Positions 13,113 to 49,200 of a stretch of 52,205 nucleotides of DNA are shown piece after piece; the first letter of the stretch is position 1, and the number at the start of each line of letters is the position of its first letter. Below the pieces are notes generated by a model. The model saw only the letters and a list, made by a program, of their open reading frames with translations, made no database searches and was not told the origin of the DNA. The stretch is from Akkermansia muciniphila (GTDB lineage: Bacteria > Verrucomicrobiota > Verrucomicrobiia > Limisphaerales > BJHT01), in assembly GCA_945861535.1 (NCBI GenBank), contig CAMAUZ010000059.1:1-52205 (forward strand), in the 5' to 3' direction. The translations under genes were made by a program, and so were the position numbers.

Positions 13113-13445
13113 TTTAACGTCGTTTCGCCACGAGGCAACGGCAGTCTTGGCCCGTTTGGAGTTCGCGTTTACGCGGCTCGTTCAATTCACCGGCTGGGAC
13201 CGCGTAAACGCGGAACTCCAAACGAAGATCGTCCGATGCTTGAGGGAACTCTCAAGCTGCGCCCCTCCCCATCGGCACGGGCGGACTCAGTTGGTTCCAA
13301 TGCGGCGTTGTCCGGTGCCCCAAATTCCCCTGCCAAAAAATTCCCCTGCCGCGCCGCCCCCTTCGCCCACCTGCAATGAAGCCCCCCCTTGCCCACTCCG
13401 TCAGGCTCCCGCTTTTCGCACCCTGAAATAACCGACACGACCCGC
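13113..13445. repeat. Divergent intergenic region with REP-like inverted repeats
   Basis: This lies between the antitoxin (minus) and the DUF4175-like gene (plus). Arms at 13154-13176 and 13200-13223 are inverted copies (TTTGGAGTTCGCGTTTACG and its complement) differing by a single inserted C, with a 23-base spacer. Further right, 13318-13352 holds two copies of ATTCCCCTGCC, a motif found again at 27434-27460 and 30496-30523. Promoters for both flanking genes must be here, but none can be pinned down by eye. Confidence 0.7.
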
Positions 13446-30871: not shown

Positions 30872-33800
30872 ATGAAACACACCCTCCTCGCTGTCCTCTC
30901 GTTCGTCGCGCTGGCGACGATGTCCACCCACGCCGCCCCGCTGGTCTTCCAAGGCACCGACGGTCCCGGCAACGGCAAACACATCGTCTTCCTCGCCGGC
31001 GATCACGAGTATCGCTCGGAAGAGTCGCTGCCCGCGCTCGCGCGGTTGCTGGCGAAGCATCACGGGTTCAAGTGCACCGTGCTGTTCAACATTGACCCGG
31101 CCACGGGCGAAATCGTCGCGGGCAACTCGAACATGCCCGGCCTCGAGGCGCTCGCCACGGCGGACCTCGCGGTGGTGTTCCTGCGCTTCCAGGCCTTCCC
31201 GGCGGAGCAGATGAAGCACTTCGATGCCTACCTCCAGCGCGGCGGCCCGGTCATCGGCCTGCGCACCGCGACGCACGCCTTCAGCGGGAACAAGGAGCCG
31301 TACACCAAATACAATCACAACGCGAAGGAAGCGGGCTACGAGCTCGGCTTCGGCCATCAGGTGCTTGGGCAAACGTGGGTCGGGCACTACGGCCGCAACC
31401 ACCAGCAGAGCACGCGCATCAGCATCGTGGCGGAGAAGGCGTCGCATCCCATCCTGCGCGGCGTGAAGGACATCTGGGTGCAGGCCGGCGGCTACGTGGG
31501 CAAGCCCACCGACGGCGAAATCCTCACGCTGGCCCAGCCGCTCAACGGCATGGCTCCCGATTCACCCGCCGACGCGACGAAGCCGCCGCAGCCCTCCGAG
31601 TGGACACGCAGTTACAAAACCGCCGCCGGCAAAACCGCGCGCGTTTTCACCACGCTCTACGGCACCTCCGAAGACATCACGAACGACGGCTATCGCCGCA
31701 TGATCATGAACAGTTGCTTCTGGGCGCTGGGGTTGGAGGACGCGATCAAGGCTGATCTCAACATCGCGTTTGTCGGCCCCTTCAAGCCGAACACCTTCAA
31801 CGGCGGCGGTTACGCGCGCGGCATCAAGCCGGAGATGTACGCGGGTTTCGAGAGCCCAATTCCGGCCAACGACAACACCAAGAATCCCAACCCGCCGGCG
31901 AAGAAGGGCGAGGGCAAGAAGGCTGAACCAAAGAAAGCCGACAAGAAGCCGTCCGACGCCAAGCCCGCGCCCGCGCCCGCCAAGTCCGACGCGGCGGACC
32001 CGACTTGCGGGACCAAGGCGGCCGCGGTGGCTTCGCCTGGCACCGTGGCGACGGGCAAGCCCGCGCGTTTCGTCCGCGTCGAGTTGCCCGGCGACAAGCG
32101 GGTACTGACACTCGCCGAAGTCGAGGTTTTCGCCGGCGGCAAGAACGTTGCCCGCACGGGCAAGGCCAGGCAGTCGAGCGAAGGCCCCGGCGCGCCCGAA
32201 CGCGGCATTGACGGCAACAAGTCGTCCGATTGGGGCAGTGGCGGGCAGACGCACACCGATAACAAAGGCACTGCCAATCCGTGGTGGGAACTCGACCTTG
32301 GCGCGGCGCAGGACATTGAGAAGGTCGCCGTGTGGAATCGCAGCGGCTTAGAGAACCGGCTCGACGGCTTCACGCTCACGCTGCTCGACGCGGAACGGAA
32401 GGAAGTCTTCCGCGCTGCGGGCATCGCCGCGCCAGAAACACTGGAGATTGATGTGAAGGCCGGCGGCAAGCTGGCGTATCGGGATTACGCCGGCAAACCG
32501 GGCCAGCCCGTCGGCAAGGGTGTCACGCTGCTCGCCGCCGCCAAGGGCGACGCGAAGAAGAACGACGGCAAGAAAGCCGCGCCCGCCGGCCCCACGCTCG
32601 CCGACGTGCCCGCCGACTACCGCGACCCGCTGCCGTTCAAGTTCACCGCGGGCGACACCGTGGCCATCCTCGGCAATGGCCTGCCCGACCGCATGCAGCA
32701 CGACGGCTGGTTCGAGACGCTGCTCCAGAGCCAGCTCGGCGAGCAGCAGGTGCGCTTCCGTAACCTGAGCGCGAGCGGCGACCGGCCCAATTCCTACCCG
32801 CGCAGCAGCGGCGTGCCGTCCATCACGACTTACCTGCAGCACGTGAAGGCCGACGTGGTCTTCGCGTTCTTCGGCTACAGCGAGTCCTTCGACAACAAGC
32901 CGGACGACCACCAGAAGCAGCTCGTGGACTTCGTGCGTCGCACGCGCGGCTCGAAGGCCAACAGCAAGTCCTTCCCGCGCATCGTCCTCTTCAGCCCCAT
33001 CGCGCACGAGGACACCCGCAATCCGAACGTCCCCGACGGCAAGGCGCACAACGTCCAGCTCGAGGCTTACACGAAGGCCACCGAAGCCGCCGCGAAGGAA
33101 GCAGGCGTGGCGTTCGTGGACTTGTTCCATCCGTCGCTTGCGCTGTTCAAGTCCGCCGCCGCGCCACTCACCATCAACGGCATTCACCTCACCGAGGAAG
33201 GCAACCGCCAGCTCGCCGAGGTCATCGCCAAGGCGCTGCTCAACAAGTCCGTCAGCGCGTCCGGCTCGATGGAATCACTGCGCACCGCCGTGCTCGACAA
33301 GGACACCCACTGGCACGCCCGCTACCGCTCCCGTGACGCCAACGACGTGTTCGGCGGCCGCTCGACGCTTTCCTTTGTGGACGGTCAGAACAACGCGGTG
33401 GTCCTCCAGCACGAGTTGGCGATGTTCGACGTTTTGACCGCCAACCGCGACGAGCGCGTCTGGGCGCGCGCGGTCGGCAAGGACAAGAACATTGACGACG
33501 GCAACGTGCCCAAGCCGGTGCCGGTGATCTCCAACGTTGGCGGCAAGAGCAAGAGTTCGAACGCGGGCAAGGAAGGCGCGCTCCGCTACATCAGCGGCGA
33601 GGAGGGCCTCAAGCACATGGCCGTGGCGAAGGGTTTTGAGGCGAATCTCTTCGCCGACGAGAAGCAATTCCCGCAGCTCATCAACCCCGTGCAGATGCAG
33701 GTGGACGCGAAGGGCCGGTTGTGGGCTTCCGTGTGGCCGACCTACCCGATGTGGGAGCCGCTCAAGCCGATGAACGACGCGCTGCTCATTTTCCACGATG

Positions 33801-36034
33801 ACAACAACGACGGCAAAGCCGACCGCGTGACGGAGTTCGCCAAAATTCAAAATCCGCTGGGCTTCGAGTTCTGGGGCGGCGGCGTGCTCGTGACGTGCCC
33901 GCCGGAAATCATCTTCCTCAAGGACACCGACGGCGACGACAAGGCCGATGTCCGCATCGTGATGCTGCAAGGCCTCGATTCCTCCGACACGCACCACGGC
34001 GCGAACAATCTCATCATGGGACCGGACGGCGGCATCTACTGGCAGAGCGGCGTCTTCATGGTGCACAACCACGAGCATCCGTGGGGGCCGTCGCTCCAGA
34101 CCGGCGCGAGCGCGATGTATCGCTTCGACCCGCGCCGCTTCACCATCGCCATGCACGCGGGCAACTCGCCGAACCCGCACGGGATTTCGTTCGATGGCTG
34201 GGGCTATCACTTCGCCACCGACGGCACCGGCGGACGGGCGTATCAGGTGCGGCCCGACGCGAAGGGCTTCAAGATGGCTGAGTTGCTGAAGAAGGAGGTT
34301 CGCCCCGTGACCGCGAACGAAGTCGTCTCCAGCACGCACTTTCCCGAGTCGATGCAGGGCGACTTCCTCATCTGCAACGTCATCGGTTTCCTTGGCATCA
34401 AGCACTACCACCTCACGCGCAATCCCGAGACCGGCGCGGTCTGGGGCGAACCGGCCGGCGACGAGCTGACCGTGACGAAGGAAAACGCCGACGGCACCAA
34501 GACCGAGGACAAGTCGCGCGGCTTCCTCATGAGCGGCGACAAGAACTTCCGTCCGTCCGACGCCATCTTCGGCTCCGACGGCGCGCTCTACGTCGCCGAC
34601 TGGCACAACGTCATCATCGGCCACATGCAGCACAACGTCCGCGACCCGAACCGTGACCACCAACACGGCCGCATCTACCGCGTCACGGCGAAGGGCCGCC
34701 CGCTGCAACAGCCCGTGGCCATCGCGGGCCAGCCCATTCCCGCCCTGCTCGAAAACTTGAAGAACCCCGCCGACAGCGTGCGCCATCGCACCCGCGTGGA
34801 GTTGAGCGGGCGCGACACCAAGGAAGTCATCGCCGCCACGCAAAGCTGGCTGAAGCAGTTCGACCCGACGAAGGCCGAGCACGCGCATCACTTGCTCGAA
34901 GCCCTGTGGCTCCACCAGCAGCACAACGTGCAGAACGCCGCGTTGCTGGACCAGGTGCTGAAGTCCCCCGAGCCGCACGCTCGCATTGCGGCGAACACCG
35001 TGAAGCACCTGTGGTTCAACGTGGAGGCCTCCACGCGCGGCGGCGTCATCGCCGGCCTTGCCGAAGTCGCCGCGCAGAAGTCCGGCATCCTGTCCGACAC
35101 GCCGACGCTCACGACCATCCGCATCGCGACCATCCCCGAGCGCATGATGTATGACGTGAAGCAGCTCGCGGTGAAGCCCGGCAAGAAAATCAAGCTGACC
35201 TTTGCCAACCCCGACTTCATGCCGCACAACATGCTGCTGGTGAAACCCGGCAAGGCTGACGAAATCGGTCTCAAGGCAATGGCCCTCGGCGCGAAAGGTT
35301 TCGATGTCGGCTTCGTCCCCGAAAGCCCCGACATCCTTTGGGCCAGCAAGCTCCTCGACCACGGCAAGGAACAGGTCATCGAGTTTACCGCGCCACAGAC
35401 CGAAGGCGCCTATCCCTACGTCTGCACGTTTCCCGGCCACCACCTCATCATGCGCGGCACGCTCATCGTAGCGAACAACCCGGCCGAGTTCCTCGCGAAG
35501 AATCCCGAGACCGCACCGAAAATGACCGAGTGGAAGCTCGCCGACTTCGCCGACGATCTGAAGCGGGTCGGCACGCACCGAAACTTCGCGCGCGGCCAGC
35601 AGCAGTTCACCGCGCTCGCCTGCGCCCAATGCCACCAACTCGGCAAGGAAGGCGTCGCCTTCGGCCCGAGCCTCAGCGACGTGGTGAAGAAATACAAAGG
35701 CGACGCCAAGCTCGTGTTGCAGGAAATCCTCGAACCCTCGAAGACCATCGAAGACAAGTATCGCAACGTGACGCTGGAGCTGGGAGACGAGAATTCCCTC
35801 AGCGGCCTCATCCTTGCCGAAGATGCCGCCAGTGTGACCATCCAGACCGGCCCGGCGGCGAACCAAATCCAGAAGGTCGCCAAGTCCGCCATCAAGTCAC
35901 GCAAAGCCTCCGCGCTCTCGCTGATGCCTGCCGGCCTGGTCAACTCGCTGGATAAGGAGCAAATCCTCGACCTCCTAGCCTACTTGCTGGCCGGCGGCAG
36001 CCCCGACCACGCCGCGTTCAAGCACGTCCACTGA
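30872..36034 (+). CDS. Giant exported ThuA-CBM-SGNH-propeller-cupredoxin-cytochrome c fusion
   Basis: A 1720-residue protein with a clear signal peptide (MKHTLLAVLSFVALATM) and this domain order: ThuA (about 35-330, HIVFLAGDHEYRSEESLP); a Lys/Pro/Ala linker (about 340-375); an F5/8-type C discoidin module (about 397-535, NPWWELDLGAAQDIEKVAVW); an SGNH-like domain (about 590-795) whose usual Ser position reads GNGL; a PVC-type beta-propeller (about 905-1275) with calcium-type loops DNNDGKAD and DTDGDDKAD; helical HEAT-like repeats (about 1283-1400); a cupredoxin with H1452, C1518, H1523 and M1527 in azurin-like spacing; and a cytochrome c with CAQCH (C1584, C1587, H1588). It probably oxidises a sugar-related substrate and passes electrons through copper to heme; this role is inference. 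The ATG at 30872 directly precedes the signal peptide. Confidence 0.85.
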   Translation: MKHTLLAVLSFVALATMSTHAAPLVFQGTDGPGNGKHIVFLAGDHEYRSEESLPALARLLAKHHGFKCTVLFNIDPATGEIVAGNSNMPGLEALATADLAVVFLRFQAFPAEQMKHFDAYLQRGGPVIGLRTATHAFSGNKEPYTKYNHNAKEAGYELGFGHQVLGQTWVGHYGRNHQQSTRISIVAEKASHPILRGVKDIWVQAGGYVGKPTDGEILTLAQPLNGMAPDSPADATKPPQPSEWTRSYKTAAGKTARVFTTLYGTSEDITNDGYRRMIMNSCFWALGLEDAIKADLNIAFVGPFKPNTFNGGGYARGIKPEMYAGFESPIPANDNTKNPNPPAKKGEGKKAEPKKADKKPSDAKPAPAPAKSDAADPTCGTKAAAVASPGTVATGKPARFVRVELPGDKRVLTLAEVEVFAGGKNVARTGKARQSSEGPGAPERGIDGNKSSDWGSGGQTHTDNKGTANPWWELDLGAAQDIEKVAVWNRSGLENRLDGFTLTLLDAERKEVFRAAGIAAPETLEIDVKAGGKLAYRDYAGKPGQPVGKGVTLLAAAKGDAKKNDGKKAAPAGPTLADVPADYRDPLPFKFTAGDTVAILGNGLPDRMQHDGWFETLLQSQLGEQQVRFRNLSASGDRPNSYPRSSGVPSITTYLQHVKADVVFAFFGYSESFDNKPDDHQKQLVDFVRRTRGSKANSKSFPRIVLFSPIAHEDTRNPNVPDGKAHNVQLEAYTKATEAAAKEAGVAFVDLFHPSLALFKSAAAPLTINGIHLTEEGNRQLAEVIAKALLNKSVSASGSMESLRTAVLDKDTHWHARYRSRDANDVFGGRSTLSFVDGQNNAVVLQHELAMFDVLTANRDERVWARAVGKDKNIDDGNVPKPVPVISNVGGKSKSSNAGKEGALRYISGEEGLKHMAVAKGFEANLFADEKQFPQLINPVQMQVDAKGRLWASVWPTYPMWEPLKPMNDALLIFHDDNNDGKADRVTEFAKIQNPLGFEFWGGGVLVTCPPEIIFLKDTDGDDKADVRIVMLQGLDSSDTHHGANNLIMGPDGGIYWQSGVFMVHNHEHPWGPSLQTGASAMYRFDPRRFTIAMHAGNSPNPHGISFDGWGYHFATDGTGGRAYQVRPDAKGFKMAELLKKEVRPVTANEVVSSTHFPESMQGDFLICNVIGFLGIKHYHLTRNPETGAVWGEPAGDELTVTKENADGTKTEDKSRGFLMSGDKNFRPSDAIFGSDGALYVADWHNVIIGHMQHNVRDPNRDHQHGRIYRVTAKGRPLQQPVAIAGQPIPALLENLKNPADSVRHRTRVELSGRDTKEVIAATQSWLKQFDPTKAEHAHHLLEALWLHQQHNVQNAALLDQVLKSPEPHARIAANTVKHLWFNVEASTRGGVIAGLAEVAAQKSGILSDTPTLTTIRIATIPERMMYDVKQLAVKPGKKIKLTFANPDFMPHNMLLVKPGKADEIGLKAMALGAKGFDVGFVPESPDILWASKLLDHGKEQVIEFTAPQTEGAYPYVCTFPGHHLIMRGTLIVANNPAEFLAKNPETAPKMTEWKLADFADDLKRVGTHRNFARGQQQFTALACAQCHQLGKEGVAFGPSLSDVVKKYKGDAKLVLQEILEPSKTIEDKYRNVTLELGDENSLSGLILAEDAASVTIQTGPAANQIQKVAKSAIKSRKASALSLMPAGLVNSLDKEQILDLLAYLLAGGSPDHAAFKHVH

Positions 36035-36352
36035 CGCGGAATAATCGAGGCTCCGATTTCCAGAAGCTCCGGGCCTGCCACCAGCGGCTCGTGCTCCTTG
36101 AACCCTCGTGGCACGTTGTCATCCGCAGCACGGACAAGCCCCGAAAGCTACTGAACCGTTTCAGGGGCCGTCCCCTGGCACGGCGGCAAAGGCGAGCCAG
36201 CGCAGGAAGCCTCCCGCACCATGCCCACCGCTGACCGCGCGGCGCTGGTGAAGTTCCTGAAATCGCTGTGCCGTGCGAAGCCGGTGGCGCTTGCCGGTGC
36301 GGCATGGAAAAACGCTGTTGCGGGGCGGCACGGTCCTATACGATTTGGCCCA
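36035..36352 (+). pseudogene. Intergenic region with remnant of a di-heme cytochrome/oxidoreductase C-terminus (36167-36275)
   Basis: From 36167 one frame reads AVPWHGGKGEPAQEASRT and then MPTADRAALVKFLKSL. This is the usual ending of di-heme oxidoreductase/cytochrome c peroxidase-like proteins (pattern: A-I-x-x-HGG, short helix, then L-x-x-x-x-R-x-A-L-x-x-F-L-x-S-L). Nothing upstream supplies heme motifs, and the frame continues without stop into the next gene, so this is read as a truncated remnant. The preceding bases 36035-36166 show no gene. The family assignment rests on about 34 residues. Confidence 0.45.
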
Positions 36353-38998
36353 ATGTCCGCTGAAACTGAAACACCCTCGGTCCCGTTCCCACGGGGCGCG
36401 GAGTGGGTGCGTGCGGATTTCCATCTGCACACCATCGCGGAGCGAGACCCGAGCCGGACTTTTCCAAAGGAGTTTCCTGGAGCGACGCAGCGGCGGGAGT
36501 GCGCCGAGGCGTGGGTTGAGAAGCTGGCCGCAGCGGGGGTTCGCGTCGCTGTGGTAACGAATCACAACATGTTCGACGCCGAGGACTATCGGCACCACGC
36601 GAAGCTGGCAGCCAAGCAGGACATTCTGGTTCTGCCGGGCGTGGAGTTGAACGTGTTTTCCGGGAGCGGGGTCCACACGCTCCTGGTGTTTCATCCGGAT
36701 TGGGCGCGCAAGGAGGAGGGCGGGACTTCGATTGAGCGCTTTCTGAGCGGGCAATTTCCCGCCGTCCCCGAGGTTGGAACCCGGACCCAAGATGCACTTG
36801 GACCGTGTCTGGCCAAGCTCGAGCAGTTTGCAAAGGAGTATTTTGTCGTCTTCGCGCACGTTCAGTCGAGCAACGGGCTGATGAGTGAGTTGGAGGGAAA
36901 TGCGCTGGCGGAGACCATCCAGCAATGCGGCAGGCTTTGGTCACAACGGGTGCTTGGGTTGCAGCGGGTCGAGGATGTGGAGGCACTCAGACGACGCTGG
37001 CCGAAGGAAGTGACCTTGCCGGCTTTGGTGGAGGGTTCTGACCCGATGGGCATGGCGGATGTGGCCCGGGAACCCGCCTGCTTCCTGAAAATTGGCGAGC
37101 TGTCGTTCGATGCGGTGCGCTTCGCGCTCCACGACCATGTGGAACGTGTGCGGTCCAAAGTTCCGCCGTCCGGTCGCGGTCCCCGGCTCGCGAGTATCCG
37201 CTTTGCGGGGGGCGCATTGCATGGAGTGCAGTTCTCGTTTTCGCCGGAGATGACCTCGCTCATCGGTTCGCGCGGCAGCGGCAAGTCGGCCGTCATCGAA
37301 TGCCTCCGCTACGGTCTCGACCTGCCGGTGGGCGAGGACGACCGCTACAAGAACAAACTGGTGGAGGTCATGCTCGCCAATGGCGGAGAGCTGACCATCA
37401 CCGGCACGAACATTCACGGGCAGGCCGTGGACATCCGACGGCCGTTGGGCTTCAACCCGAAGGTGTATCTGGAGGGCAAGGAGACGAAACTTCGCCCGCA
37501 GGATGTCTTTCCCGATGTGCTCTATTTCGGCCAGAAGGACCTCGGGCATCGGGGCGAAGAGGGCGATGCGGAATTCTTCGGGAAACTTTTCGGCCCGGCC
37601 AGCCCGGAGGAGCGCGCGGAGGAGGAACGTCGCCGCACCTTGGTGCAGCAGGCCGTGCAGGAACATGTCTCCGTGCTGCGGGCGCGGGAGAAGGACGACG
37701 AGTTTGCGCTGGAAGAGGAGCGGTTGAAGCACGAGCTGTTGCTGTATCACGAACGGGGGGTCGAACAGCGCTTGCAGGCGCTGACTTCGTTTGACACGGA
37801 CAAGCGCAGCTTGACGGACTTCACCGAACGACTGCGCGCATTCCGGGAAGAATTGGGGCTGCCGCTGCCGGGCTGGCAGGACTTGCAGGCCGAGTTTCCT
37901 CGTCTCCAGAGCGAAGTTTTCACCGTCATCAACGAACGCCTGGGTGCGCTCTCGTCGGAGCTGGGTGCTCTGGCGCGCGACAGCGCCGCCCTGCTGCAAC
38001 GGGTGGATGCTTTGCTTGGCAAGCTGGACGGCGAATTGCAGGCCATCGCGGACAAGGAGCGGGAGTTGCAGGAGCAGTTCGCCGCCCTGCAGCGGGAAAT
38101 CAACGCGCCCGACCTCGACCTCCAGCAATACCGCCAAAAGCGGTCGCGCTTCGAGCAGCTCGGCAAGCTCCGTCAGGCTGCCAGCAATCGCACCGTCGCC
38201 TCGCGGCAAGCGCTCGACCGGGCCATCAGTGCCGCGCGGAGCCTGCATGAGCTCTGGCGCACGCAGCACCACCGCGAACTGAGTTCACTGGAAGAACGCC
38301 GCCCGACGATCCCGGAATCGCTGACGCTCCGCAGCGAATTCGAGGCCGACCGGGAGGCGTTCAAGAACTTTCTCAAGGCGAAGCTGAAGGGCACCGGCTT
38401 TCGCGAGACTTCCTACGACCGGGTGGTCGAGGAATTCCGCAACGGACTGGTCCTGCATGAACAACGGGCGAAAATCGCCCCCGTGCTTGGGGCCAGTGCG
38501 GATGTGCAGAAGCTCGAGCAAGCGTTGGCGGCTCATCTGGCCGACTTCCTCACGTTCCGTGTGCCAGCGCGGCAGGAAATCCTGTTCGATGGCACCCCCA
38601 TTCAGACGCTTTCCCTCGGCAAACGGGCGACCGCCTTGCTCACGCTCGTGATGTCGCTCGAGAGCCATCCCATCATCCTCCTTGACCAGCCCGAGGACGA
38701 CTTGGACAACGAAACCATCTTCAAGCAGGTCGTCGCCCCGCTCCTCCGGCGGAAAGCGGACCGCCAGTTCATCATTGCGACGCACAACCCGAACATTCCC
38801 GTGCTCGGCGACGCGGAACTGGTGCATGCCTGCCACGAAGAGGCCAAGGGCACCTACCGGCAGGCCTCCGGCAGCATTGATTCCCAGCCCACGCGGGACA
38901 GCATCGTGAAAATCATGGAGGGCGGCGAACTGGCCTTCCAGCAACGTCAGAAAATCTACCGGCAATGGACGAACTCTCCCTGCGCGAAGAACTCCTGA
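36353..38998 (+). CDS. TrlF-type PHP-domain plus SMC/ABC-like ATPase
   Basis: This 881-residue protein fuses a PHP phosphoesterase domain (about 16-260) to an SMC/ABC ATPase. PHP motifs: ADFHLHT (H24, H26), TNHNMFD (H71), LPGVELN (E98), FAHVQ (H169) and GSD (D230); the last is followed by PM where many PHP enzymes have AH. ATPase motifs: Walker A GSRGSGKS (305-312), a central coiled coil (about 415-690), signature TLSLGKRATALLTL, Walker B/D-loop IILLDQPEDDLDNE and switch His in IIATHNPNI. The architecture matches the TrlF family of AAA-like ATPases, found in bacterial conflict loci. Nucleic-acid or nucleotide cleavage gated by ATP is inference. An upstream ATG (36221) lies in the cytochrome remnant; the ATG at 36353 starts the conserved part. 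The next gene overlaps by 34 bases. Confidence 0.85.
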   Translation: MSAETETPSVPFPRGAEWVRADFHLHTIAERDPSRTFPKEFPGATQRRECAEAWVEKLAAAGVRVAVVTNHNMFDAEDYRHHAKLAAKQDILVLPGVELNVFSGSGVHTLLVFHPDWARKEEGGTSIERFLSGQFPAVPEVGTRTQDALGPCLAKLEQFAKEYFVVFAHVQSSNGLMSELEGNALAETIQQCGRLWSQRVLGLQRVEDVEALRRRWPKEVTLPALVEGSDPMGMADVAREPACFLKIGELSFDAVRFALHDHVERVRSKVPPSGRGPRLASIRFAGGALHGVQFSFSPEMTSLIGSRGSGKSAVIECLRYGLDLPVGEDDRYKNKLVEVMLANGGELTITGTNIHGQAVDIRRPLGFNPKVYLEGKETKLRPQDVFPDVLYFGQKDLGHRGEEGDAEFFGKLFGPASPEERAEEERRRTLVQQAVQEHVSVLRAREKDDEFALEEERLKHELLLYHERGVEQRLQALTSFDTDKRSLTDFTERLRAFREELGLPLPGWQDLQAEFPRLQSEVFTVINERLGALSSELGALARDSAALLQRVDALLGKLDGELQAIADKERELQEQFAALQREINAPDLDLQQYRQKRSRFEQLGKLRQAASNRTVASRQALDRAISAARSLHELWRTQHHRELSSLEERRPTIPESLTLRSEFEADREAFKNFLKAKLKGTGFRETSYDRVVEEFRNGLVLHEQRAKIAPVLGASADVQKLEQALAAHLADFLTFRVPARQEILFDGTPIQTLSLGKRATALLTLVMSLESHPIILLDQPEDDLDNETIFKQVVAPLLRRKADRQFIIATHNPNIPVLGDAELVHACHEEAKGTYRQASGSIDSQPTRDSIVKIMEGGELAFQQRQKIYRQWTNSPCAKNS

Positions 38999-40110
38999 AA
39001 GGCGAGGACAGCACCCGTCAATTCAAGCGCGAGCTGCCCAGCGCTGCGGCCTTTGCCGCCGAGGCGGTGGCGTTCCTCAACTCCAGCGGCGGGCGCATCT
39101 TCGTCGGGGTTGATGACGATGGCAGCATCCGCGGCGTCCCGGCGGAAAGGCGGGATGCCCAGACCCAATTGATTGCGAACGCCTGCACGCACAACCTCAC
39201 GCCGCCCAGCGGGGTGCTCACGGAGAACGTCGCGACCAGCGACGGGCTGGTCATCGTCGTGACGGTGCCCGAGGGAGCCGACAAGCCGTATCAAACTGCG
39301 GACGGCTCGTTCTACGTGAAGCGCGGAGCCGACAAGCGGCGCGTCAGCAACCGCTCGGAGCTGCAGCGGATGTTTCAGGCGGCGCACGCGGTCTATGCCG
39401 AGGCCCGCCCGAGAGCAGGCAGTTCCACCGCCGACCTCGACACGGCCGCCTTCGCCAGTTTCTACCGGACCAAATACGGCGGCGAACCGCCGGGCGACGA
39501 ACCCTCCCTGCTGCGGGAACTCAACGCCTCCCGGCTGGCAAGGCAGGCATTGCTCACCCTCGCGGGCTTGCTGCTCTTCGGCCACCAGCCGCAAAAGCTG
39601 CTGCCTGAATTCACGGTCAAAGCCGTGTGGTTCGTGGGCAACGACCGCAGCGCCACCGCCTACCGGGATAGTCGGCGATTCGAAGGCAACCTTGCCGCGC
39701 TCTACGAGCAGTCCATGGCCTTTCTGCGTCGGTGGAACGGCCGGGTTGCCACCAGCGGCTCTTTTAACACGCCGGCCCAGGCGGAGATTCCCGACATCGT
39801 CTTCGAGGAGCTTGTCACCAACGCGCTCGTCCATCGGGACTACTTCATCGCTGACAGCGTGAAGCTCTTCATCTTCGACGACCGTATCGAAATCAGGAGT
39901 CCCGGCCGCCTGCCCAACAGCCTCACGGTGGAAGAAATGCTGCGCGGCATCCGCCGTGACCGCAACCCGGTCATCCAGAGCTTTGCTTACGACGTTCTGA
40001 ATTATCGCGGACTGGGCAGCGGCATCTTGCGGGCGTTGAAGGCCAAACCCGACCTCTCATTTGCGGAGGAGAGCGGTGAGGAACTGGTTGCGACCATCCC
40101 CATCGCTTGA
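38965..40110 (+). CDS. AlbA/Schlafen-domain and RecG-like C-terminal protein
   Basis: The 381-residue protein begins with an AlbA_2/Schlafen-type domain (about 1-130; FLNSSGGRIFVGVDDDGSI, then SFYVKRGADKRR). Its C-terminal half contains a GHKL-like HATPase fold as in RecG-like transcription/defence proteins (EELVTNALVHRDYF, DDRIEIRSPGRLPN, LGSGILRAL). The family is annotated as putative DNA binding or transcription regulation; Schlafen-like domains also occur in tRNA nucleases and antiphage proteins. The start ATG overlaps the TrlF-type gene by 34 bases in another frame, so the two are translationally coupled and probably act together. Composition is lower in C than the 10-24 kb genes. No catalytic residues can be assigned with confidence. 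Confidence 0.85.
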   Translation: MDELSLREELLKGEDSTRQFKRELPSAAAFAAEAVAFLNSSGGRIFVGVDDDGSIRGVPAERRDAQTQLIANACTHNLTPPSGVLTENVATSDGLVIVVTVPEGADKPYQTADGSFYVKRGADKRRVSNRSELQRMFQAAHAVYAEARPRAGSSTADLDTAAFASFYRTKYGGEPPGDEPSLLRELNASRLARQALLTLAGLLLFGHQPQKLLPEFTVKAVWFVGNDRSATAYRDSRRFEGNLAALYEQSMAFLRRWNGRVATSGSFNTPAQAEIPDIVFEELVTNALVHRDYFIADSVKLFIFDDRIEIRSPGRLPNSLTVEEMLRGIRRDRNPVIQSFAYDVLNYRGLGSGILRALKAKPDLSFAEESGEELVATIPIA

Positions 40111-40492
40111 AGCGAGCGTTGGAGCCGGCAGGCACGCTTATTCCGCTCGTGCATGGGGCCTGCGACAGAAGGCGACGCAATGTCACGAACTCAGCACGGA
40201 ATGCGTCGCCCTCGCCCCTGACCTTCCAACGGCAGCGAGGAAAAATATCGCAACGTGACGTTCAATCTCAGCGACAAGAACACCCACGCCGGCCTGCTCA
40301 GCGCGCTGGACGAAGAGCAAATCCTCGCTCCCCCCCGCCCACCTCCTCGCGAGTGGCAGCCCCGACCACCCGGCTTTCCAGCACGTCCATTGACGCATCA
40401 TCATCCCAAATCCGGCTCTGGCATTTTCGTCATCGCTGCGCTGTATTGCTCCGTGCCCAATTCAAAACTTGGTTCCGCTGCCACGACATTCC
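40111..40492 (+). pseudogene. Intergenic region with decayed C-terminal remnant of a PVC-type cytochrome c protein (40237-40393)
   Basis: Positions 40237-40324 read EEKYRNVTFNLSDKN, then HAGLLSALDEEQIL. After a one-base frame shift, 40337-40393 read AHLLASGSPDHPAFQHVH and a stop. The intact paralogues at 30872 and 46206 have EDKYRNVTLELGDEN and, about 50 residues later, LDKEQILDLLAYLLAGGSPDHAAFKHVH in pieces. So this is a fragment of a third family member with an internal deletion and a frameshift, and it no longer codes for heme binding. Bases 40111-40236 and 40394-40492 show nothing recognisable. Confidence 0.85.
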
Positions 40493-41779
<1,287 letters not shown>

Positions 41780-41813
41780 GTCTCATGCACACGCTCCGAC
41801 GAATTCGCACGCC

Positions 41814-44090
41814 ATGAAAATGCTCCGTCTTCTTCTCGTCTCGCTTTGCCTCGCGGCTTTTCCCTTACACGCCCGCGCCGCGCTCACGCTCGAGCAGACG
41901 CAAAAGGCCGCCACGGGGATCGACTCCCTCCTCGCCGCGCACTGGAAGACCTCCGGCGTCACGCCCAACGCGTCCATCAGCGACGAGACCTTCGTGCGCC
42001 GTATCTATCTGGACCTCGCGGGGCGCATTCCGACCGCAGCAGAGGCACGCGCTTTTCTCTACTCGAAGCAGTCGGACAAGCGCGCGGCGTTGATCTACGA
42101 CCTGCTCGGTCGCGAGAGCTACGTGTCGCATTTCTACAACTTCTGGGCGGACATCCTGCGGCTGAAGTCGCACTTCGTGAACACAGCGAACGTCGTGCCC
42201 GCCGCCTACGCGAAGTTCATCAAGGAGAGCCTCCGCAGCAACAAGCCCTACGACCAGTTCGTGCGCGAGCTGCTCTCGGCGCGCGGCTACGCATGGGACA
42301 ACGGCGCGGTCGGCTACTACGGCCGCGACCCGGAGATGCCCCTCGACAACATGGCGCTCACCACGCGCATTTTCCTCGGCACGCGCATCGAGTGCGCGCA
42401 GTGCCACGACCATCCCTTCGACAAGTGGAAGCAGACGGAGTTCTACCACCTCGCGGCTTACACCTATGGCAACAAACTGGTGCATGAGGCGTTCAGCGGC
42501 GCGCGCGACGCCATTCGCGCCCGTCAGGATGCGATCAACAATGATTTCAAAAAGGAAAAGGCCGCGTCCACCGATGGCGGCAAGGCGGCGGAAAAGCGCA
42601 AGCAGGAGCGGCTCGACGCCATGGAGTATCGGAAAGTCGTCGGCATCATCAAAGGCCCGGTCGGCCAGCTCTTCAGCCCCATCGGCCTCGAACGCAAGGC
42701 CGACGCCGTGCTCAAACTGCCGTTCGATTTCCACCAGGACGACGGCAAGCCCGGCGACGTGATGCGGCCCCGGCCCATCTTCGGCACCGTGCCGGAATTG
42801 CAGTCCGCCGACGATTCCGCCGCAGCCTTCGCGCGCTGGGTGAAATCACCCGAAAACCCCCGCTTCACCCGCGTCATCGTAAACCGCCTTTGGCGAAAGC
42901 TCTTCGGCGTCGCGCTCACCGAGCCGCTCGATGATCTGCGCGACGGCGCAAACGCAATGGTGCCCGCCATCGAGCAGCACCTGACGAAGCTTCTCATCGA
43001 GCAGCGCTACGATTTGAAAGCGTTTCTCGCCGTCGTGGCGAACACGCGCGCCTACCAGTCCGCCGTTACGCCCGGCGAGTTCAACCGCGGCGAGGAGACC
43101 TATCACTTCACCGGCCCGCTGCTCCGCCGGATGACCGCCGAGCAGATTTGGGATTCCATGGTTGCACTGGCGAACCACGAACCCGACGCCCGCGACCTCG
43201 CCCGCGAGGGCCGCGACGACCGCCGCATCGCCGTCTCGCACATGGCCTGCGACGCCTACCTGAACTTCGCCGGCACCCAGCTCGTGGACATGGCCTACGC
43301 GCGCTTGCAGGCGGAACTGGACCTGCAAAAGCGCGACGCTGCCGTGAAGGAAGCCCTCATCGTCGCCAAGCGCGCCGGCGACAAACAGAAGGAACTCGAA
43401 TTGCGCCGCAAGGAAGGCGCCCTCGACCGCGAGCGCGGCGAGACCTTCGTGAAGGATTTCATCCTGCCCATCCTCACGAACCTCGCGCAGAAAAAAGCCG
43501 GACCGGACGCGAAAGTCACCGTGGACGAAACCTATAAGATGAACCCCAACCCGCGCGTGCTGCCGACCGAGACCTGGAAGCGCCTGCACGTCCCCGGCTA
43601 CGGGCCCGCGCCCAAGACCGCCGCGCAACTCGCAGCCGAAGCGCAGGCGGAAAAAGCGCGCCTCGTCACGCTGGCCTTGAGGCTCGGCTATACCGAGAAG
43701 GATTGCACCGGGTTCGTTGCCTACTGCGAGAGAACCGCCGCCGAATGGCGACGCGCCTCCGAACTCGACAGCCCCGCGCCGCGCGGTCATTTCCTGCGCA
43801 CCATGGGCCAGAGCGACCGCGACTTCGTCGAGAAGGCGAACCCGAACGCCGGCATCCCGCAGGCGCTGGCGCTGATGAACGGTGAACTCCTATCCCCGCG
43901 CGGCCTCCTCTCGCCCTACTCGCCCCTGCTGCACGGCGTCGATCGCGCAGCCGACAAAGTGGACGCTGTCTTCCTCGCGCTTCTCTCGCGCGCGCCCACC
44001 ACAGCGGAGCGCACCCGCCTCGCCAACACCGCCCTGACCGATCTCATCCACGGGATGCTGAACACGAAGCAGTTTCTTTTCATCCAGTGA
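41814..44090 (+). CDS. DUF1549/DUF1553 exported heme-type protein
   Basis: A 758-residue protein with a signal peptide (MKMLRLLLVSLCLAAFPLHARA). The N-terminal DUF1549 region has DETFVRRIYLDLAGRIPT and the heme c-type motif ECAQCHDHPFDKW (C194, C197, H198). The C-terminal DUF1553 region has FTRVIVNRLWRKLFGV, LRRMTAEQIWDSMVAL and the terminal LLSRAPTTAERTRLANT. These proteins are a hallmark of PVC secretomes and are paired with DUF1501 partners; they may take part in extracytoplasmic redox or glycan-related complexes. A Lys/Ala/Glu-rich helical insertion at about 500-560 contains a coiled-coil-like stretch (RAGDKQKELELRRKEG). The start ATG at 41814 directly precedes the signal; an earlier frame start overlaps the DUF1501 gene. 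Confidence 0.92.
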   Translation: MKMLRLLLVSLCLAAFPLHARAALTLEQTQKAATGIDSLLAAHWKTSGVTPNASISDETFVRRIYLDLAGRIPTAAEARAFLYSKQSDKRAALIYDLLGRESYVSHFYNFWADILRLKSHFVNTANVVPAAYAKFIKESLRSNKPYDQFVRELLSARGYAWDNGAVGYYGRDPEMPLDNMALTTRIFLGTRIECAQCHDHPFDKWKQTEFYHLAAYTYGNKLVHEAFSGARDAIRARQDAINNDFKKEKAASTDGGKAAEKRKQERLDAMEYRKVVGIIKGPVGQLFSPIGLERKADAVLKLPFDFHQDDGKPGDVMRPRPIFGTVPELQSADDSAAAFARWVKSPENPRFTRVIVNRLWRKLFGVALTEPLDDLRDGANAMVPAIEQHLTKLLIEQRYDLKAFLAVVANTRAYQSAVTPGEFNRGEETYHFTGPLLRRMTAEQIWDSMVALANHEPDARDLAREGRDDRRIAVSHMACDAYLNFAGTQLVDMAYARLQAELDLQKRDAAVKEALIVAKRAGDKQKELELRRKEGALDRERGETFVKDFILPILTNLAQKKAGPDAKVTVDETYKMNPNPRVLPTETWKRLHVPGYGPAPKTAAQLAAEAQAEKARLVTLALRLGYTEKDCTGFVAYCERTAAEWRRASELDSPAPRGHFLRTMGQSDRDFVEKANPNAGIPQALALMNGELLSPRGLLSPYSPLLHGVDRAADKVDAVFLALLSRAPTTAERTRLANTALTDLIHGMLNTKQFLFIQ

Positions 44091-44189
44091 ATCATCCCCG
44101 CTATGCAGGTTTGCCCCGCCGTCTGCCGACTGGTGAGTATCGCGCAGGCTTGAGCCGGGCAAACCGCCATCTCACGCTCTCCTGAAATT

Positions 44190-45407
44190 ATGACACGACC
44201 GCGCCTCACCCCGCTCATGCTTCTGTCCGCAGTGTTCAGTGTCGCCGGTTCGATCCTCGCGGCCACCTACGACCCGAACGTCCTGCCCAAGGGCCACGAA
44301 TACTTCGAACTGCGCGACGGCATCGCGAACGCGCAACTGAAGTTCGAGCGCGAGAAGACGGGGCGCATCGCCTTTCTCGGCGGCTCCATCACCGCCGGCG
44401 GCGGCTGGCGGGATCACACGATGAAATACTTCCAGGCGAAGTTCCCGCAGACGAAGTTCGAGTTCATCGGGGCGGGCATCAGCTCGATGGGCTCGGTGCC
44501 GCATTCGTTCCGGCTCGAGCGCGATGTGTTGTCGAAGGGGCCGGTGGACCTGCTCTTCGTCGAGGCAGCGGTGAATGACACCTCCAACATCCCGGACCAG
44601 CCCGACCAGATGCTCCGCGGCATGGAGGGCGTGGTGCGCCACGCGCGCGCGGCGAATCCGCTGACGGACATCATTCATCTGCACTTCGTCATGCCGCCGC
44701 ACATGGACGACTACAACCAAGGCCGCGTGCCCACATCCATCGCCCAGCACGAAAAGGTCGCCGTCGCTTATGGCAATCCGTCGCTGAATCTCGCCCGCGA
44801 AGTCACCGACCGCATCAACGCGGGTGAGTTCACTTGGGAGAAGGATTTCAAGGGCCTGCATCCGTCGGCCTTCGGTCATCAGCTCTACGCGAACAGCATC
44901 GCGCGGATGTTGAATGCAGCCTTCGCCAAGCCGGCAGCCACCACTGCCAAACCCCACGCCTTGCCCGCGCTCGTGGATGCCCGCAGCTACGTTCGCGGAC
45001 GGCTCGGCAACATCGCGCAGGCGCGTATCGTGAAGGGCTTCACCTTGGAGCCCGCGTGGAAGCCGACGGACAAGAAGGGCACGCGCGAGGGTTTTGTCGC
45101 GGTGCCCGCGCTGGTCGGCACGGAGCCGGGCGCGGAGTTTGAGTTTAGCTTCACCGGCACGGGCGCGGGGCTGTTCATCGCCTCCGGGCCGGACGCTGGC
45201 CGCATCGAGCACAGCGTGGACGGCGGAGCCTGGCGCGCCACGGACACCTTCACGCACTGGAGCGCCGGGCTGCATCTGCCGTGGGCCGTGATCCTCGATG
45301 ACGGACTGAAGGACGGTCCGCACACGGTGAAGGTCCGCATCGCCGCCGGCCACGACGCCAAAGGCACGGGCACCGCGCTGCGCGTATTCCATCTGCTGCT
45401 CAACTGA
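44190..45407 (+). CDS. Exported SGNH/GDSL-type hydrolase with C-terminal beta domain
   Basis: A 405-residue protein with a signal peptide (LTPLMLLSAVFSVAGSILA). The SGNH fold is shown by block I GGSITAGGGW (nucleophile Ser), block III EAAVNDT (Asn) and block V FKGLHPSAFGH (catalytic His preceded by D). Members deacetylate or de-esterify carbohydrates such as acetylated xylan or sialic acids. The C-terminal about 130 residues form a beta-sandwich (GTEPGAEFEFSFTGTGAGLF) like the jelly roll of CtCE2-type esterases. The 99-base gap upstream contains no gene. The gap to the next gene is 18 bases. Confidence 0.88.
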   Translation: MTRPRLTPLMLLSAVFSVAGSILAATYDPNVLPKGHEYFELRDGIANAQLKFEREKTGRIAFLGGSITAGGGWRDHTMKYFQAKFPQTKFEFIGAGISSMGSVPHSFRLERDVLSKGPVDLLFVEAAVNDTSNIPDQPDQMLRGMEGVVRHARAANPLTDIIHLHFVMPPHMDDYNQGRVPTSIAQHEKVAVAYGNPSLNLAREVTDRINAGEFTWEKDFKGLHPSAFGHQLYANSIARMLNAAFAKPAATTAKPHALPALVDARSYVRGRLGNIAQARIVKGFTLEPAWKPTDKKGTREGFVAVPALVGTEPGAEFEFSFTGTGAGLFIASGPDAGRIEHSVDGGAWRATDTFTHWSAGLHLPWAVILDDGLKDGPHTVKVRIAAGHDAKGTGTALRVFHLLLN

Positions 45408-45425
45408 CTTCCACCCAAGGCCCCC

Positions 45426-46175
45426 GTGCTCCGGTTAATCCTCACCCTGCTGCTCGCGACATCCCCCGCCGCTCTGCGCGCTGCCGATGCGGCCTGGCTG
45501 CGCGAGAAGGGCACGCTGATTTTCCACGACGCTTTCGAGCGCGAGGAGGATGGCAATCTCGCCAAGGCCATCGGCAAAGGCTGGAACAGCGCGACCGCCG
45601 ACCGCGTGCCGCACATCAAGATGGCCGACCTCGATGGCGGCATTCTCAAAATCAACAGTGCGTCGAAAGAGGCGGGGCACGCCGCACACATTCACCACGA
45701 GGCCGGTTTTACGGACGGCGGTGCGGTTGTGCGCTTCAAGTTTCCGGGCTTGAACAAGGGCGAATCGCTCCAACTCGGCTTCGTGGACCGCGAGACCAAA
45801 GGTGTTCACGCCGGACATCTCGGCTACGGCATTCTCTCGCCGTCGAGCGTCACGCTGATTGACCACAAGACCGGCATTATGAACTTGGAGAACCGCAAGC
45901 GCCGCGATGACGCCGTCGCCCGAAAGGAGAAGCTGCCGGCGGACCTCGAGGCGCTCCTGAAGTCGAAACACACCACCGTGCCGTGGAAGTCCGACACCGA
46001 ATGGCACGAGCTCATCCTTGTGACCGAAGGCGACGAGATGCGCTTGAGTCTGGATGGCAAACTCGTGGCGAAGCATCGCTCCGAAGGCTTCGCGCACCCG
46101 ATGAAACGATGGTTCAGTTTCCTCGTTCCGAACACGGTGTGGATTGACGACGTGAAGATTTGGAAAGTCCGCTGA
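45426..46175 (+). CDS. Exported DUF1080/LamG-like protein
   Basis: A 249-residue protein starting at GTG (45426) with AAGG eight bases upstream. The signal peptide is LRLILTLLLATSPAALRA. The rest is a concanavalin-like beta-jelly roll similar to DUF1080 (3-keto-disaccharide hydrolase-like) domains: IFHDAFEREEDGN, VVRFKFPGLNKGESLQLGF, DEMRLSLDGKLVAKH and the terminal NTVWIDDVKIWKV. Catalytic activity in the DUF1080 family has been described for 3-keto-glycosides, but the residues are not discernible here, so a carbohydrate-binding role is equally possible. It lies within the operon between the GDSL hydrolase and the second giant cytochrome. Confidence 0.8.
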   Translation: MLRLILTLLLATSPAALRAADAAWLREKGTLIFHDAFEREEDGNLAKAIGKGWNSATADRVPHIKMADLDGGILKINSASKEAGHAAHIHHEAGFTDGGAVVRFKFPGLNKGESLQLGFVDRETKGVHAGHLGYGILSPSSVTLIDHKTGIMNLENRKRRDDAVARKEKLPADLEALLKSKHTTVPWKSDTEWHELILVTEGDEMRLSLDGKLVAKHRSEGFAHPMKRWFSFLVPNTVWIDDVKIWKVR

Positions 46176-46205: not shown

Positions 46206-49200
46206 ATGATGCCCTCCTTGCTAAGCCGTCTCTTGATCCAATGCGCGATAGTGGGCTTCGGTTGCTCGCTGCTCGCCATGCCCGCTTGTGCCGCCATCCC
46301 TTTCGCCAAGAACGACACGATTCTCTTCTACGGCAACTCGATGGTGGAGCGGTTGCTGGAGTCCGGGCATCTGGAGGCGCAGATGCAGCTCGCCCATCCG
46401 GAGAAGAATCTCCGCCTGCGCAGCCTCGCTTGGACCGGCGATGAAGTCGGCCACCGGCTCCGCGCCGAGGGGTATGTCGAGCACTTGAAGACGTTGCTGG
46501 CGAAGTGGCCGGCGAATGTCGTCGTGCTCGGCTACGGCATGAATGAGTCCTTCGGCGGCCCGGCGGGGCTGGCCGCGTTTCGGGCGCAGTTCGAGGCGCA
46601 TTTGCGGGAGGTCGGTCGGCTGCATCCCAACGCCAAGCTCGTGCTGCTCTCGCCCATCGCGGTTCCCAACGACGGGCCGCGCAATGCCGAAGTCGCCGCT
46701 TATTCCGCAGTGATTGCGGATTTGGCGAAAGCCCGCGGCGCGCTGTTCGTGGAGCTGTTCACGGCCAGTCAGGCGGCGCACGCCAAGAGTCCGGTTCCGC
46801 TCGTGAGCCAGGGCATTCACCTCACCGACGCGGGCAATCGCGAAATGGGCAACGCCATCGCGCGTGCTTTGCTGGGGGAGGCGGCGGTGGCTCGCGTGCC
46901 CACCTGGCGCGTGGAGGATGTGGCCTTGGCCGCCGCGCAGAAGGCCCGCGCCGTCGCCGACCTCGTGCGGCCGAAAAACGGCGTGGTCTATTACGGCGTG
47001 CGCAAACGGCCCGAGGAATACGCCGCCGAGATGCCGCGTTATCACCAGCTCATCGAGCAGGCAGAGCGGATTTTGCACGAATTGGTTAGCAAGCCGTCCG
47101 GGCACTTCGCCGACTTTCCCGCGCCTTCCCTGCCGCCGATGCCGGAGGGCAAGAGCAAAACCGACCGCTTCGGTGGCGGCGTGGTGAAATCCCCGGCGGA
47201 GCAGCAGAAGGATTTGAAAGTCGCCGATGGCTACACGCTCAACCTCTTCGCGTCGGAGGCGGAGTTCCCCGATTTGAAAAGCCCGGTGCAGATGGCCTTC
47301 GACGCGCGCGGTCGCCTGTGGGTCGTGACGATGCCGTCCTTCCCCCACACCGTCCCCGGTGCGCCGCCCCGGGACAAGATTCTGATTCTCGAAGACACCA
47401 ACCGCGACGGGAAGGCGGACAAGAGCACGGTGTTTGCAGACGGCTTTGACGCGCTGGACGGCGTCGCCTTCCACGAGCGCGGCGTCATCGTCTCCGCGCA
47501 GCCGCGGCTGCTGCTGCTCACGGACCGCGATGGCGATGGCCGGGCGGATGCCCAGACCGAGCTCCTGCGCGGCGTGGACGTGACCGACTCGCATCACGGC
47601 GGCATGGTCGCGAGCGACCCGCTGGGCCATGTGATTTTTTGCGATGGCGTGTTTCACCGGTCACAATTCGAGACGCCGTTCGGCGTGGTGCGCGGCGTTG
47701 ATTCCACCACGTATCGCCTGGAGCCCGGCACCGGTCGCATCACCGCCGAGTGGCAAAGCATGACGCCCAACCCGTGGAAAGTTTCCTTCGACCGCTACGG
47801 CAACATTTTCCAACGCTACGGTGGCGGCCATGTGCTCGATGGGTTGCCGCTCACCTGGACGCCGCTAGGGGCCTATCATCCTTACGGCCACGGCACGGTG
47901 GTGAACTACGGGAAAGGCTCCGCGCTCAGTGTCATTTCGAGTCCGAACTTCCCGGCCGAGTATCAGCAAGGCATCGCGTCCGCCACGCTGCTGGGCAACT
48001 ACTTCGTCTCGCTCTCGAAGCCCAACGCCACCGCCGGGCCCATTGTCGGCACGGACCGGCTTGATGTGCTCAGTTCCACCAACGCCGCGTTCCGGCCGGT
48101 GGACTGCGAGTTTGGCTTCGATGGGGCGCTCTACATCTCCGACTTCTCCAGCCGCATCATCGGTCACGCACAGCATCCGATGCGCGACCCGCAATGGAAC
48201 CACGAGAAGGGCCGCATCTGGCGCGTGGTTTACAACGGGAAGCCGGTCGTCACGGACTGGCCGAACATCGAAGGCGCAAGCGTGCCGCAACTGCTAGCGC
48301 TGCTTACCCATCCGCAAGACATCGTGCGCCATCACGCGCGCATCCGCTTGCGCGGACTCGGTAGCGAAGTCGTCCCCGCGCTGGACGCCTGGCTGGCCGC
48401 GCTGAATCGTGCCCAGCCCTCGTTCGCCCCGTCCGCGCTCGAAGCCCTGTGGGTCCTGCACGCCCGGGGCGAGGTTCGCCCGTCCGTCCTTGGCGAACTG
48501 CTGCGCGCCACGGACCCACTGCTGCGCGCCGCCGCCGTGCAGCTCATCCGCTTTCAATCTGAGCGATTGCCCGACGCGCTCAACTGGCTCACCGCCGCCG
48601 CACAAGACACGCACCCGCGCGTGCGCATGGCCGTCATCAGCGTCGTCGCGCACCTGCGACAGCGGCAGCCGCAGTTGGAATCGGCCCTTGCCCGGCGCAA
48701 GCCCGCCGAGCCGCCGGTGCAGCAGATGCTCGCCGATTTGAAACTGGGGTCCAAACCCGTCCGGGGCCGCTCAATTCCCGTGCTGGAGGTTTCCCCCGAA
48801 ACGAAAGTGAGCCAGTGGCTCTCCCTCGGCGAAAGCAGCGCCCCCGAGCCCAGCCCAGCTCCGAGCACCGCCGCTCAAAAGAAAGGCAAGGCTGCTCCGC
48901 TCAAAACGTTGACCTACCGCACCTTCCTCGAAGCCGATACCAGCCAGACCGCGCTGTTGAGCGTCAGGCACGGCTACCTCGACATCTCGGCCAACGGCGT
49001 GCAACTCCTCACCGCCGACAGCCAGTGGAGCTCCGAGCAGCAAGTGCAAGTCGAGTTGCAGCGCGGGCTCAACAGCATCGAAATCGCCTTCCGCCGGGCC
49101 AAACCTGCGATGCCGCCGGTATTCCTCTACGACTTGCTCGGCCAACCACTCAGCGGCGCACGCCTCGCCACCACTGCCGCCGGTTTGAAGACTTTCGCCG

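Follow-up and report, generated by a model that had tools for sequence, protein, structure and literature searches.

In soluble glucose dehydrogenase (sGDH), His144 acts as the base and an Arg/Asx pair surrounds the ketones of PQQ (PMC6881810). Fungal pyranose dehydrogenase provides a precedent for joining such chemistry to a redox partner, since a sugar-oxidizing propeller is fused there to a cytochrome b domain (PMC6881789). Glycosides can also be oxidized in the periplasm: the lactose 3-dehydrogenase LacABC works there with DUF1080 3-ketoglycoside hydrolases, whose proposed periplasmic substrate is the 3'-ketolactose that LacABC makes, and BT2157, a member of this hydrolase family, is a characterized 3-ketotrehalose hydrolase (PMC9007349). 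A thuAB-like operon has been tied to 3-keto-maltose in Paenibacillus (PMC4765114). The related planctomycete-specific cytochromes have, according to published work, no known function (PMC5615132). A published azurin survey left out proteins longer than 200 aa (PMC8779525), and because such hits were excluded it could not have detected the fusion proteins described here. The propeller-cytochrome architecture already has a named NCBI family, and both cupredoxins and ThuA proteins are known; the combination of these is conserved yet undescribed in the open-access literature that we searched, in which we found no paper on the seven-module architecture below.

We analyzed a single stretch of DNA of 52,205 nucleotides (the window), which carries two related multi-domain genes, paralogs A and B. 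Domains were called with Pfam and NCBIfam profiles that passed their curated cut-offs, and the layout of paralog A was as follows.

30872–36034, + strand: whole gene, paralog A, a 1720-aa multi-domain exported protein (translation; relatives align from residue 1)
30872–30937, + strand: Sec signal peptide, residues 1–22, without a lipobox (sequence reading)
31019–31726, + strand: ThuA domain, residues 50–285 (Pfam PF06283, 3.4e-9)
32171–32392, + strand: F5/8 discoidin, fucolectin-like carbohydrate-binding domain, residues 434–507 (PF22633/PF00754; phmmer to FBP32 and fucolectins)
32702–33208, + strand: SGNH-fold domain, Lipase_GDSL_2, residues 611–779 (PF13472, 3.1e-10)
33599–34693, + strand: beta-propeller DUF7133/TIGR02604, residues 910–1274 (DUF7133 4.9e-60; TIGR02604 6e-54; PQQ sugar dehydrogenase fold)
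34736–35032, + strand: six-helix HEAT-like segment, residues ~1289–1387 (model DSSP; HEAT_2 in paralogs)
35111–35470, + strand: type 1 cupredoxin, residues 1414–1533, auracyanin nearest (Copper-bind 1423–1533, 2.1e-9; structure search)
35585–35986, + strand: TIGR02603 cytochrome c domain, residues 1572–1705 (TIGR02603 5e-27; two-domain model)

The reading frame was uninterrupted by stop codons, and its translation begins with the Sec-type signal peptide MKHTLLAVLSFVALATMSTHA-AP; the protein is probably periplasmic or at the cell surface. The ATG at 30872 was favored over a longer frame from 30278 because four relatives (L017, L022, L030, and L090) could be aligned to paralog A from residue 1. 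The ThuA domain scored 37.7 bits against the PF06283 cut-off of 33.4, the F5/8 discoidin Pfam match covered residues 446–507 (1.7e-8), and the Cytochrom_C Pfam match covered residues 1573–1629. TIGR02604 (183.8 bits, cut-off 122.2) and TIGR02603 (94.4 bits, cut-off 68.15) matched the same chain, and with both models paralog A is a PVC-type heme-binding CxxCH protein. The preliminary description had placed ThuA, discoidin, propeller, cupredoxin, and cytochrome c domains on one chain, and profile matches above curated cut-offs bear this out. It had also named a HEAT-like part, for which no HEAT profile in Pfam matched within the paralog A ORF; the structural model gives six helices at this place, where the paralogs do match HEAT_2. 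An assembly artifact joining separate genes was ruled out as the source of the layout, as assemblies made independently, and a sister genome (88% identity), show the same order.

The copper site has four ligands.

35225–35227, + strand: copper ligand H1452 (conservation, spacing)
35423–35452, + strand: copper-ligand loop C1518-T-F-P-G-H1523-H-L-I-M1527 (conservation, spacing)

Residues H1452, C1518, H1523, and M1527 had been put forward as ligands with azurin spacing (66, 5, and 4 residues), and both the residues and the spacing were exactly as claimed. This spacing pattern appeared in 3 of 20,000 composition shuffles of paralog A, and the ligand columns did not vary where present (H in 73/73; C, H, and M each in 70/70; 12/12 in the paralog group); shuffles and conservation together rule out a chance origin. 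The ligands were not placed apart in the predicted structure, in which the cupredoxin overlaid auracyanin A (Z 19.0, rmsd 1.2 Å, 119 residues). Sequence, conservation, and modeled fold all back a type 1 copper site, and with its His-Cys-His-Met ligand set in a cupredoxin fold the domain is predicted to belong to the type 1 class. The label 'azurin-like' was right for the fold and the ligands, but auracyanin is nearer than azurin: the domain is 38% identical to Roseiflexus auracyanin, and the TIGR02695 'azurin' equivalog gave 31.6 bits on paralog A, below its cut-off of 105.1, with auracyanins scoring better.

The cytochrome c domain follows the cupredoxin.

35621–35635, + strand: heme c motif C1584-A-Q-C1587-H1588 (CAQCH) (motif, conservation)
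35924–35926, + strand: M1685, likely distal heme ligand (conservation)

Both the CxxCH motif and the distal Met were kept in every full-length cytochrome-fused member. The domain fits the c-type pattern of CxxCH plus a distal axial ligand, and heme attachment is predicted. Residues 1405–1720 modeled alone reached a pLDDT of 91 and a pTM of 0.83, the latter indicating a predicted packing of cupredoxin against cytochrome, and in this model a copper-to-heme hop within one chain is plausible. The same genome has the copper-heme unit in a third gene (L007, 157–2427 on contig C66); it encodes a 757-aa protein that is ~45% identical to the C-terminus of paralog A, in which only cupredoxin and cytochrome c were recognized, behind an N-terminal part of 450 residues.

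A single scan over the contigs of GTDB genomes gave 78 loci, mostly from Verrucomicrobiota and Planctomycetota with a few labeled Rhodothermales/Bacteroidetes. Most of these loci are from MAGs, and labels like 'Proteobacteria', 'Akkermansia muciniphila', and 'Kuenenia' are unreliable. Orthologs sharing 50–93% identity kept the order ThuA-discoidin-SGNH-propeller-helices-cupredoxin, some without ThuA and/or discoidin. In L085, L086, L088, and L082 the discoidin domain, instead of being near the N-terminus, comes after the helical part and before the cupredoxin. In Prosthecobacter-type loci (L023, L024, L026, L032, L048, L057, L074, L083, and others) the ortholog is in tandem with a 1072-aa SGNH-propeller-HEAT-cupredoxin paralog, both proteins being without a cytochrome. 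A full-length search at E 1e-250 of 195 genomes, an even sample of the phylum, matched only the genome of origin; judged by these sequences, either the family is patchy or that threshold was too strict.

The fused cytochrome was the minority state, found in 18 of 86 rows, as opposed to 62 complete rows without it and six that run off the contig. In the tree, the cytochrome-bearing orthologs formed one group inside the cupredoxin-ending ones (SH-aLRT 96); the cytochrome-less rows within this group were two cut contigs and L084, and L082 and paralog B were placed apart. By this phylogeny, the fused heme is a later, derived addition, and from the nesting of the cytochrome group among cupredoxin-ending orthologs the ancestral electron exit would therefore have been copper. 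The fusion presumably internalized a formerly separate partner. The electron path from propeller to copper to heme in the preliminary description needs qualifying in this respect: a copper site and a c-type heme occur in one chain with a propeller fold and its catalytic His, but the relatives that are complete without a cytochrome make clear that the family is not built on the seven-module chain, and in most members the path would leave the protein at copper.

Paralog B is encoded 10 kb from paralog A and shares its C-terminal module.

46206–50162, + strand: paralog B, 1318 aa, SGNH-DUF7133-HEAT_2-cupredoxin-cytochrome c, without ThuA or discoidin (profiles, comparison with A)
35410–36026, + strand: C-terminal segment of A, cupredoxin end plus cytochrome (84.5% DNA identity to 49538–50154 in B)

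The two proteins were only ~31% identical over the SGNH-propeller body, in contrast to the 84.5% DNA identity of their last ~620 bp. The DNA identity of the A and B cytochromes within a genome was 94.8% in L027 and 90.5% in the sister genome G001, while the A copies of the two genomes were 85.1% identical. Higher identity within than between genomes points to concerted evolution, by gene conversion or repeated copying. The comparison suggests that the A and B proteins may share one electron acceptor. Upstream of paralog B (40469–46175) are a DUF1501 gene, a PSCyt2-PSD1 (DUF1549/DUF1553) gene, a GDSL lipase gene, and a 249-aa ORF without a Pfam match; the DUF1501/PSCyt pair also adjoins several orthologs elsewhere. 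Between paralogs A and B are genes for an SMC-type ATPase (36221–38998; PADLOC Ppl model match) and an overlapping Schlafen AlbA_2 protein (38965–40110). Defense-like genes elsewhere in the window are a superfamily 1 helicase with an MTES_1575/DUF559 nuclease end (389–3643, − strand; by PADLOC, MkoC/MkoA-like) and a Sacsin-NOV_C protein with matches to TmtA models (4720–9153, − strand). Three successive large ORFs (1291, 624, and 325 aa) at 13389–20113 had no Pfam match, and the first two also had no PADLOC match.

Any catalysis by paralog A as an oxidoreductase would be expected in the propeller, whose pocket has two positions that can be placed on sGDH.

33995–33997, + strand: H1042, position of catalytic His144 of soluble glucose dehydrogenase, invariant (bridged alignment)
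34172–34174, + strand: N1101, invariant, at the position of sGDH Asn229 (bridged alignment)

In an AlphaFold2 model of residues 585–1720 (pLDDT 84.9, pTM 0.72), the nine top-ranked VIA-align rows of the propeller were all PQQ-type sugar/glucose dehydrogenases (Z 24.0–26.8, 267–287 residues). The best was 3a9g (Z 26.8, 2.5 Å, 276 residues), and the nine also included 6i1q/6h7t/6i1t (AA12, T. reesei), 2ism, 7cgz/7cdy, 6jt5, and 2g8s; the CcPDH PQQ domain and E. coli Asd belong to these best rows as well. Diels-Alderases, lactonases, HHIP, and others came next at Z 22–24, non-redox proteins included, and because the whole superfamily scores closely the fold by itself is no proof of function. The structure-search lists for the model were dominated by the propeller and the cupredoxin and barely covered the SGNH and cytochrome folds.

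Mapping of sGDH residues was bridged via GSDH proteins and the GSDH-like TIGR02604 proteins of the same genome, some of which, as sister proteins, also pass the GSDH Pfam cut-off. Direct routes were not informative: hhalign of the propeller profile with the GSDH profile gave no useful alignment, the blades sliding against each other; the propeller profile found generic propeller matches only among PDB sequences; and the GSDH family PF07995 had zero matches in paralog A. The position of Arg228 is Pro, Ala, or Val in this propeller subfamily. Among the features of PQQ sugar dehydrogenases, the fold and the catalytic His were present, whereas the Arg/Asx pair was incomplete, with the Asn kept, and a PF07995 match was absent. 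All 25 propellers compared, down to 34% identity, keep H1041, H1042, E1068, R1084, N1101, and D1243, and H1251, R1257, D1258, R1267, and R1270 are also fixed in them. PqqE was not found above the cut-off in the genome (best 49.7 bits vs 381), so PQQ would need to be imported or another cofactor used. From alignment and model, the pocket appears sugar-dehydrogenase-like, with an uncertain cofactor.

The SGNH domain called in the preliminary description stands as a fold and fails as an enzyme. The catalytic Ser is replaced by Gly in paralog A (G603 in GNG, just before the Pfam match), and the nucleophile column of 70 relatives contains Gly in 58, Ala in seven, Ser in four, and Thr in one. The block-III Asn, present in 70/70 relatives, is Ser in paralog A (S670, 32879–32881). 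An active esterase was rejected given the lost nucleophile, and with the block-III Asn lost as well in this copy the domain is best read as a binding fold. In the ThuA domain and just before its Pfam match, D44-H45-E46-Y47-R48, R131, T134, H135, Q167, H172, and H177 are fixed in 46/46 relatives, and because these pocket residues do not vary the ThuA domain of paralog A is probably active.

The DUF7133 proteins of the genome are built from interchangeable sugar modules. On contig C86, a 3-keto-disaccharide hydrolase stands in the place of ThuA (3-keto-disaccharide hydrolase-SGNH-DUF7133-HEAT-CytC), and other contigs encode ThuA-DUF7133-CBM4_9-CytC (C85), LamG-DUF7133-HEAT-CytC (C2), and F5/8-DUF7133-HEAT (C14). 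Contig C5 has consecutive co-oriented genes for a 3-keto-disaccharide hydrolase, two ThuA proteins, and a DUF7133+HEAT protein, the last of which also matches GSDH. The genome has about 29 TIGR02604 loci, and 4/13 ThuA genes were <4 kb from one, with 0.43 expected (P 7e-4; 3/12 when counted as loci, P 0.006). The same proximity was not significant for 3-keto-disaccharide hydrolases in the genome (2/28, P 0.24), whose association rests on the fusion and the operon, not on proximity statistics. Orthologs have sulfatases and PSCyt/DUF1501 pairs among their neighbors, and one neighbor gene cluster, the tested members of which are sulfatases, occurs in 27 loci.

From the fold, the conserved pocket, the modules, and the genomic context, we therefore favor, tentatively and as something short of probable, an exported respiratory dehydrogenase that oxidizes sugars in a 3-ketoglycoside route and carries a copper-heme relay. 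The observed basis of this reading is the domains, the copper and heme ligands, the propeller fold, the ThuA pocket, the loss of the SGNH nucleophile, and the ThuA/3-keto-hydrolase association; propeller oxidation, the direction of electron flow, the 3-keto chemistry, the role of ThuA, and the location of the protein are what we infer. The discoidin domain and the catalytically dead SGNH fold would hold a glycan or glycoside, which the propeller would oxidize in its sGDH-like pocket with H1042 as base. The cofactor may be a PQQ-like quinone, imported if used. The type 1 copper would receive the propeller's electrons, which in this clade would go on to the fused heme c and then to the respiratory chain, and ThuA would act on the keto-sugar product.

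The loss of the PQQ-activating Arg and the absence of detected PQQ synthesis also suit a propeller that is a non-catalytic glycan-binding scaffold, leaving ThuA as the sole enzyme and the copper and heme as a relay between other proteins, e.g., a separate dehydrogenase and oxidase. That the chain already contains one inactivated enzyme, the SGNH domain, is consistent with this alternative, as is a propeller fold class that holds binding proteins such as HHIP. The set of polar residues that is invariant over 25 propellers to 34% identity is unusual for a plain scaffold, however, and we consider this explanation unlikely.

Less likely still is a propeller acting as a glycoside hydrolase or lyase, with the copper/heme tail serving another purpose, e.g., docking to the electron transport chain. 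This alternative, the principal one with experimental backing, draws on Lac161_ORF7, which comes from a Chthoniobacter-type cosmid and has a TIGR02604-HEAT-cytochrome c architecture; the purified protein is reported to free glucose from lactose with a Km of 1.8 mM (PMC5342196). The carbohydrate-binding modules and neighboring sulfatases would likewise suit polysaccharide breakdown. Glucose release alone does not exclude an oxidative role because the proposed 3'-ketolactose route also frees glucose, and the available part of that report describes Lac161_ORF7 without a cupredoxin or ThuA and mentions no active-site mutant (PMC5342196). By fold, the propeller is closest to sugar dehydrogenases rather than to GH propellers, and redox ligands that hydrolysis does not need are fixed in all members, which makes a hydrolase improbable. 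Reverse flow, with heme and copper reducing a propeller metal or cofactor as in nitrous oxide reductase or feeding an oxygen-activating glycan oxidase, is very improbable: Foldseek placed N2O reductase just under auracyanin and sGDH and the His pair H1041-H1042 is invariant, but the N2OR matches had an rmsd of ~24 Å with only fold order in common, three invariant His in the propeller are too few for a CuZ-type cluster, and the copper is of type 1 where nitrous oxide reductase has CuA.

The sugar dehydrogenase reading can be taken further, to single-chain glycoside oxidases of a new, respiratory class, in which a non-PQQ or altered-quinone propeller makes a keto-sugar and reduces its own copper (in one clade also its own heme), and its own ThuA processes the product. 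By extension, the many uncharacterized TIGR02604 proteins found in Planctomycetota and Verrucomicrobiota would act as sugar dehydrogenases that deliver electrons, in an oxidative route for polysaccharides that is widespread. We regard this wider proposal as doubtful. PVC-group bacteria each have dozens of genes for TIGR02604 proteins and planctomycete-type cytochromes, and having a propeller, ThuA, and spectroscopically visible copper and heme on one chain reduces the question of sugar oxidation to one absorbance experiment. If true, the proposal would mean that abundant bacteria of soil and fresh water also break down glycans by an oxidative, respiratory route, and it would supply a ready-made copper-heme electrode enzyme.

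Auracyanin (Chloroflexus, Roseiflexus) and azurin have the whole cupredoxin fold, the four ligands, and the CxxxxHxxxM loop in common with paralog A, but they are free shuttles, whereas the cupredoxin here is a covalent part of a 1500–1720-residue protein. Nitrous oxide reductase has a CuA site and a seven-His CuZ site. It also joins a propeller and a cupredoxin in one chain; paralog A differs in its other arrangement, its four-ligand, one-Cys type 1 site in place of CuA, and its lack of a CuZ-type His set. LacABC with DUF1080 (Caulobacter) and ThuAB have in common with the proposed route the extracytoplasmic oxidation of glycosides and enzymes for a 3-keto product. LacABC is a separate three-component membrane enzyme, in contrast to a propeller-copper fusion with ThuA, not DUF1080. 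PVC-type CxxCH proteins have the propeller, the helical/HEAT part, and the C-terminal cytochrome of paralog A, which unlike them also contains ThuA, discoidin, and a dead SGNH domain, with a cupredoxin between helices and cytochrome; most close relatives, again unlike PVC-type CxxCH proteins, have the cupredoxin and no cytochrome. The propeller fold and the catalytic His are common to sGDH, Asd, AA12, and paralog A, which differs from these enzymes in the missing Arg228 and the missing PF07995 match, and which goes beyond them in having two redox domains, copper and then heme, together with ThuA, SGNH, and discoidin.
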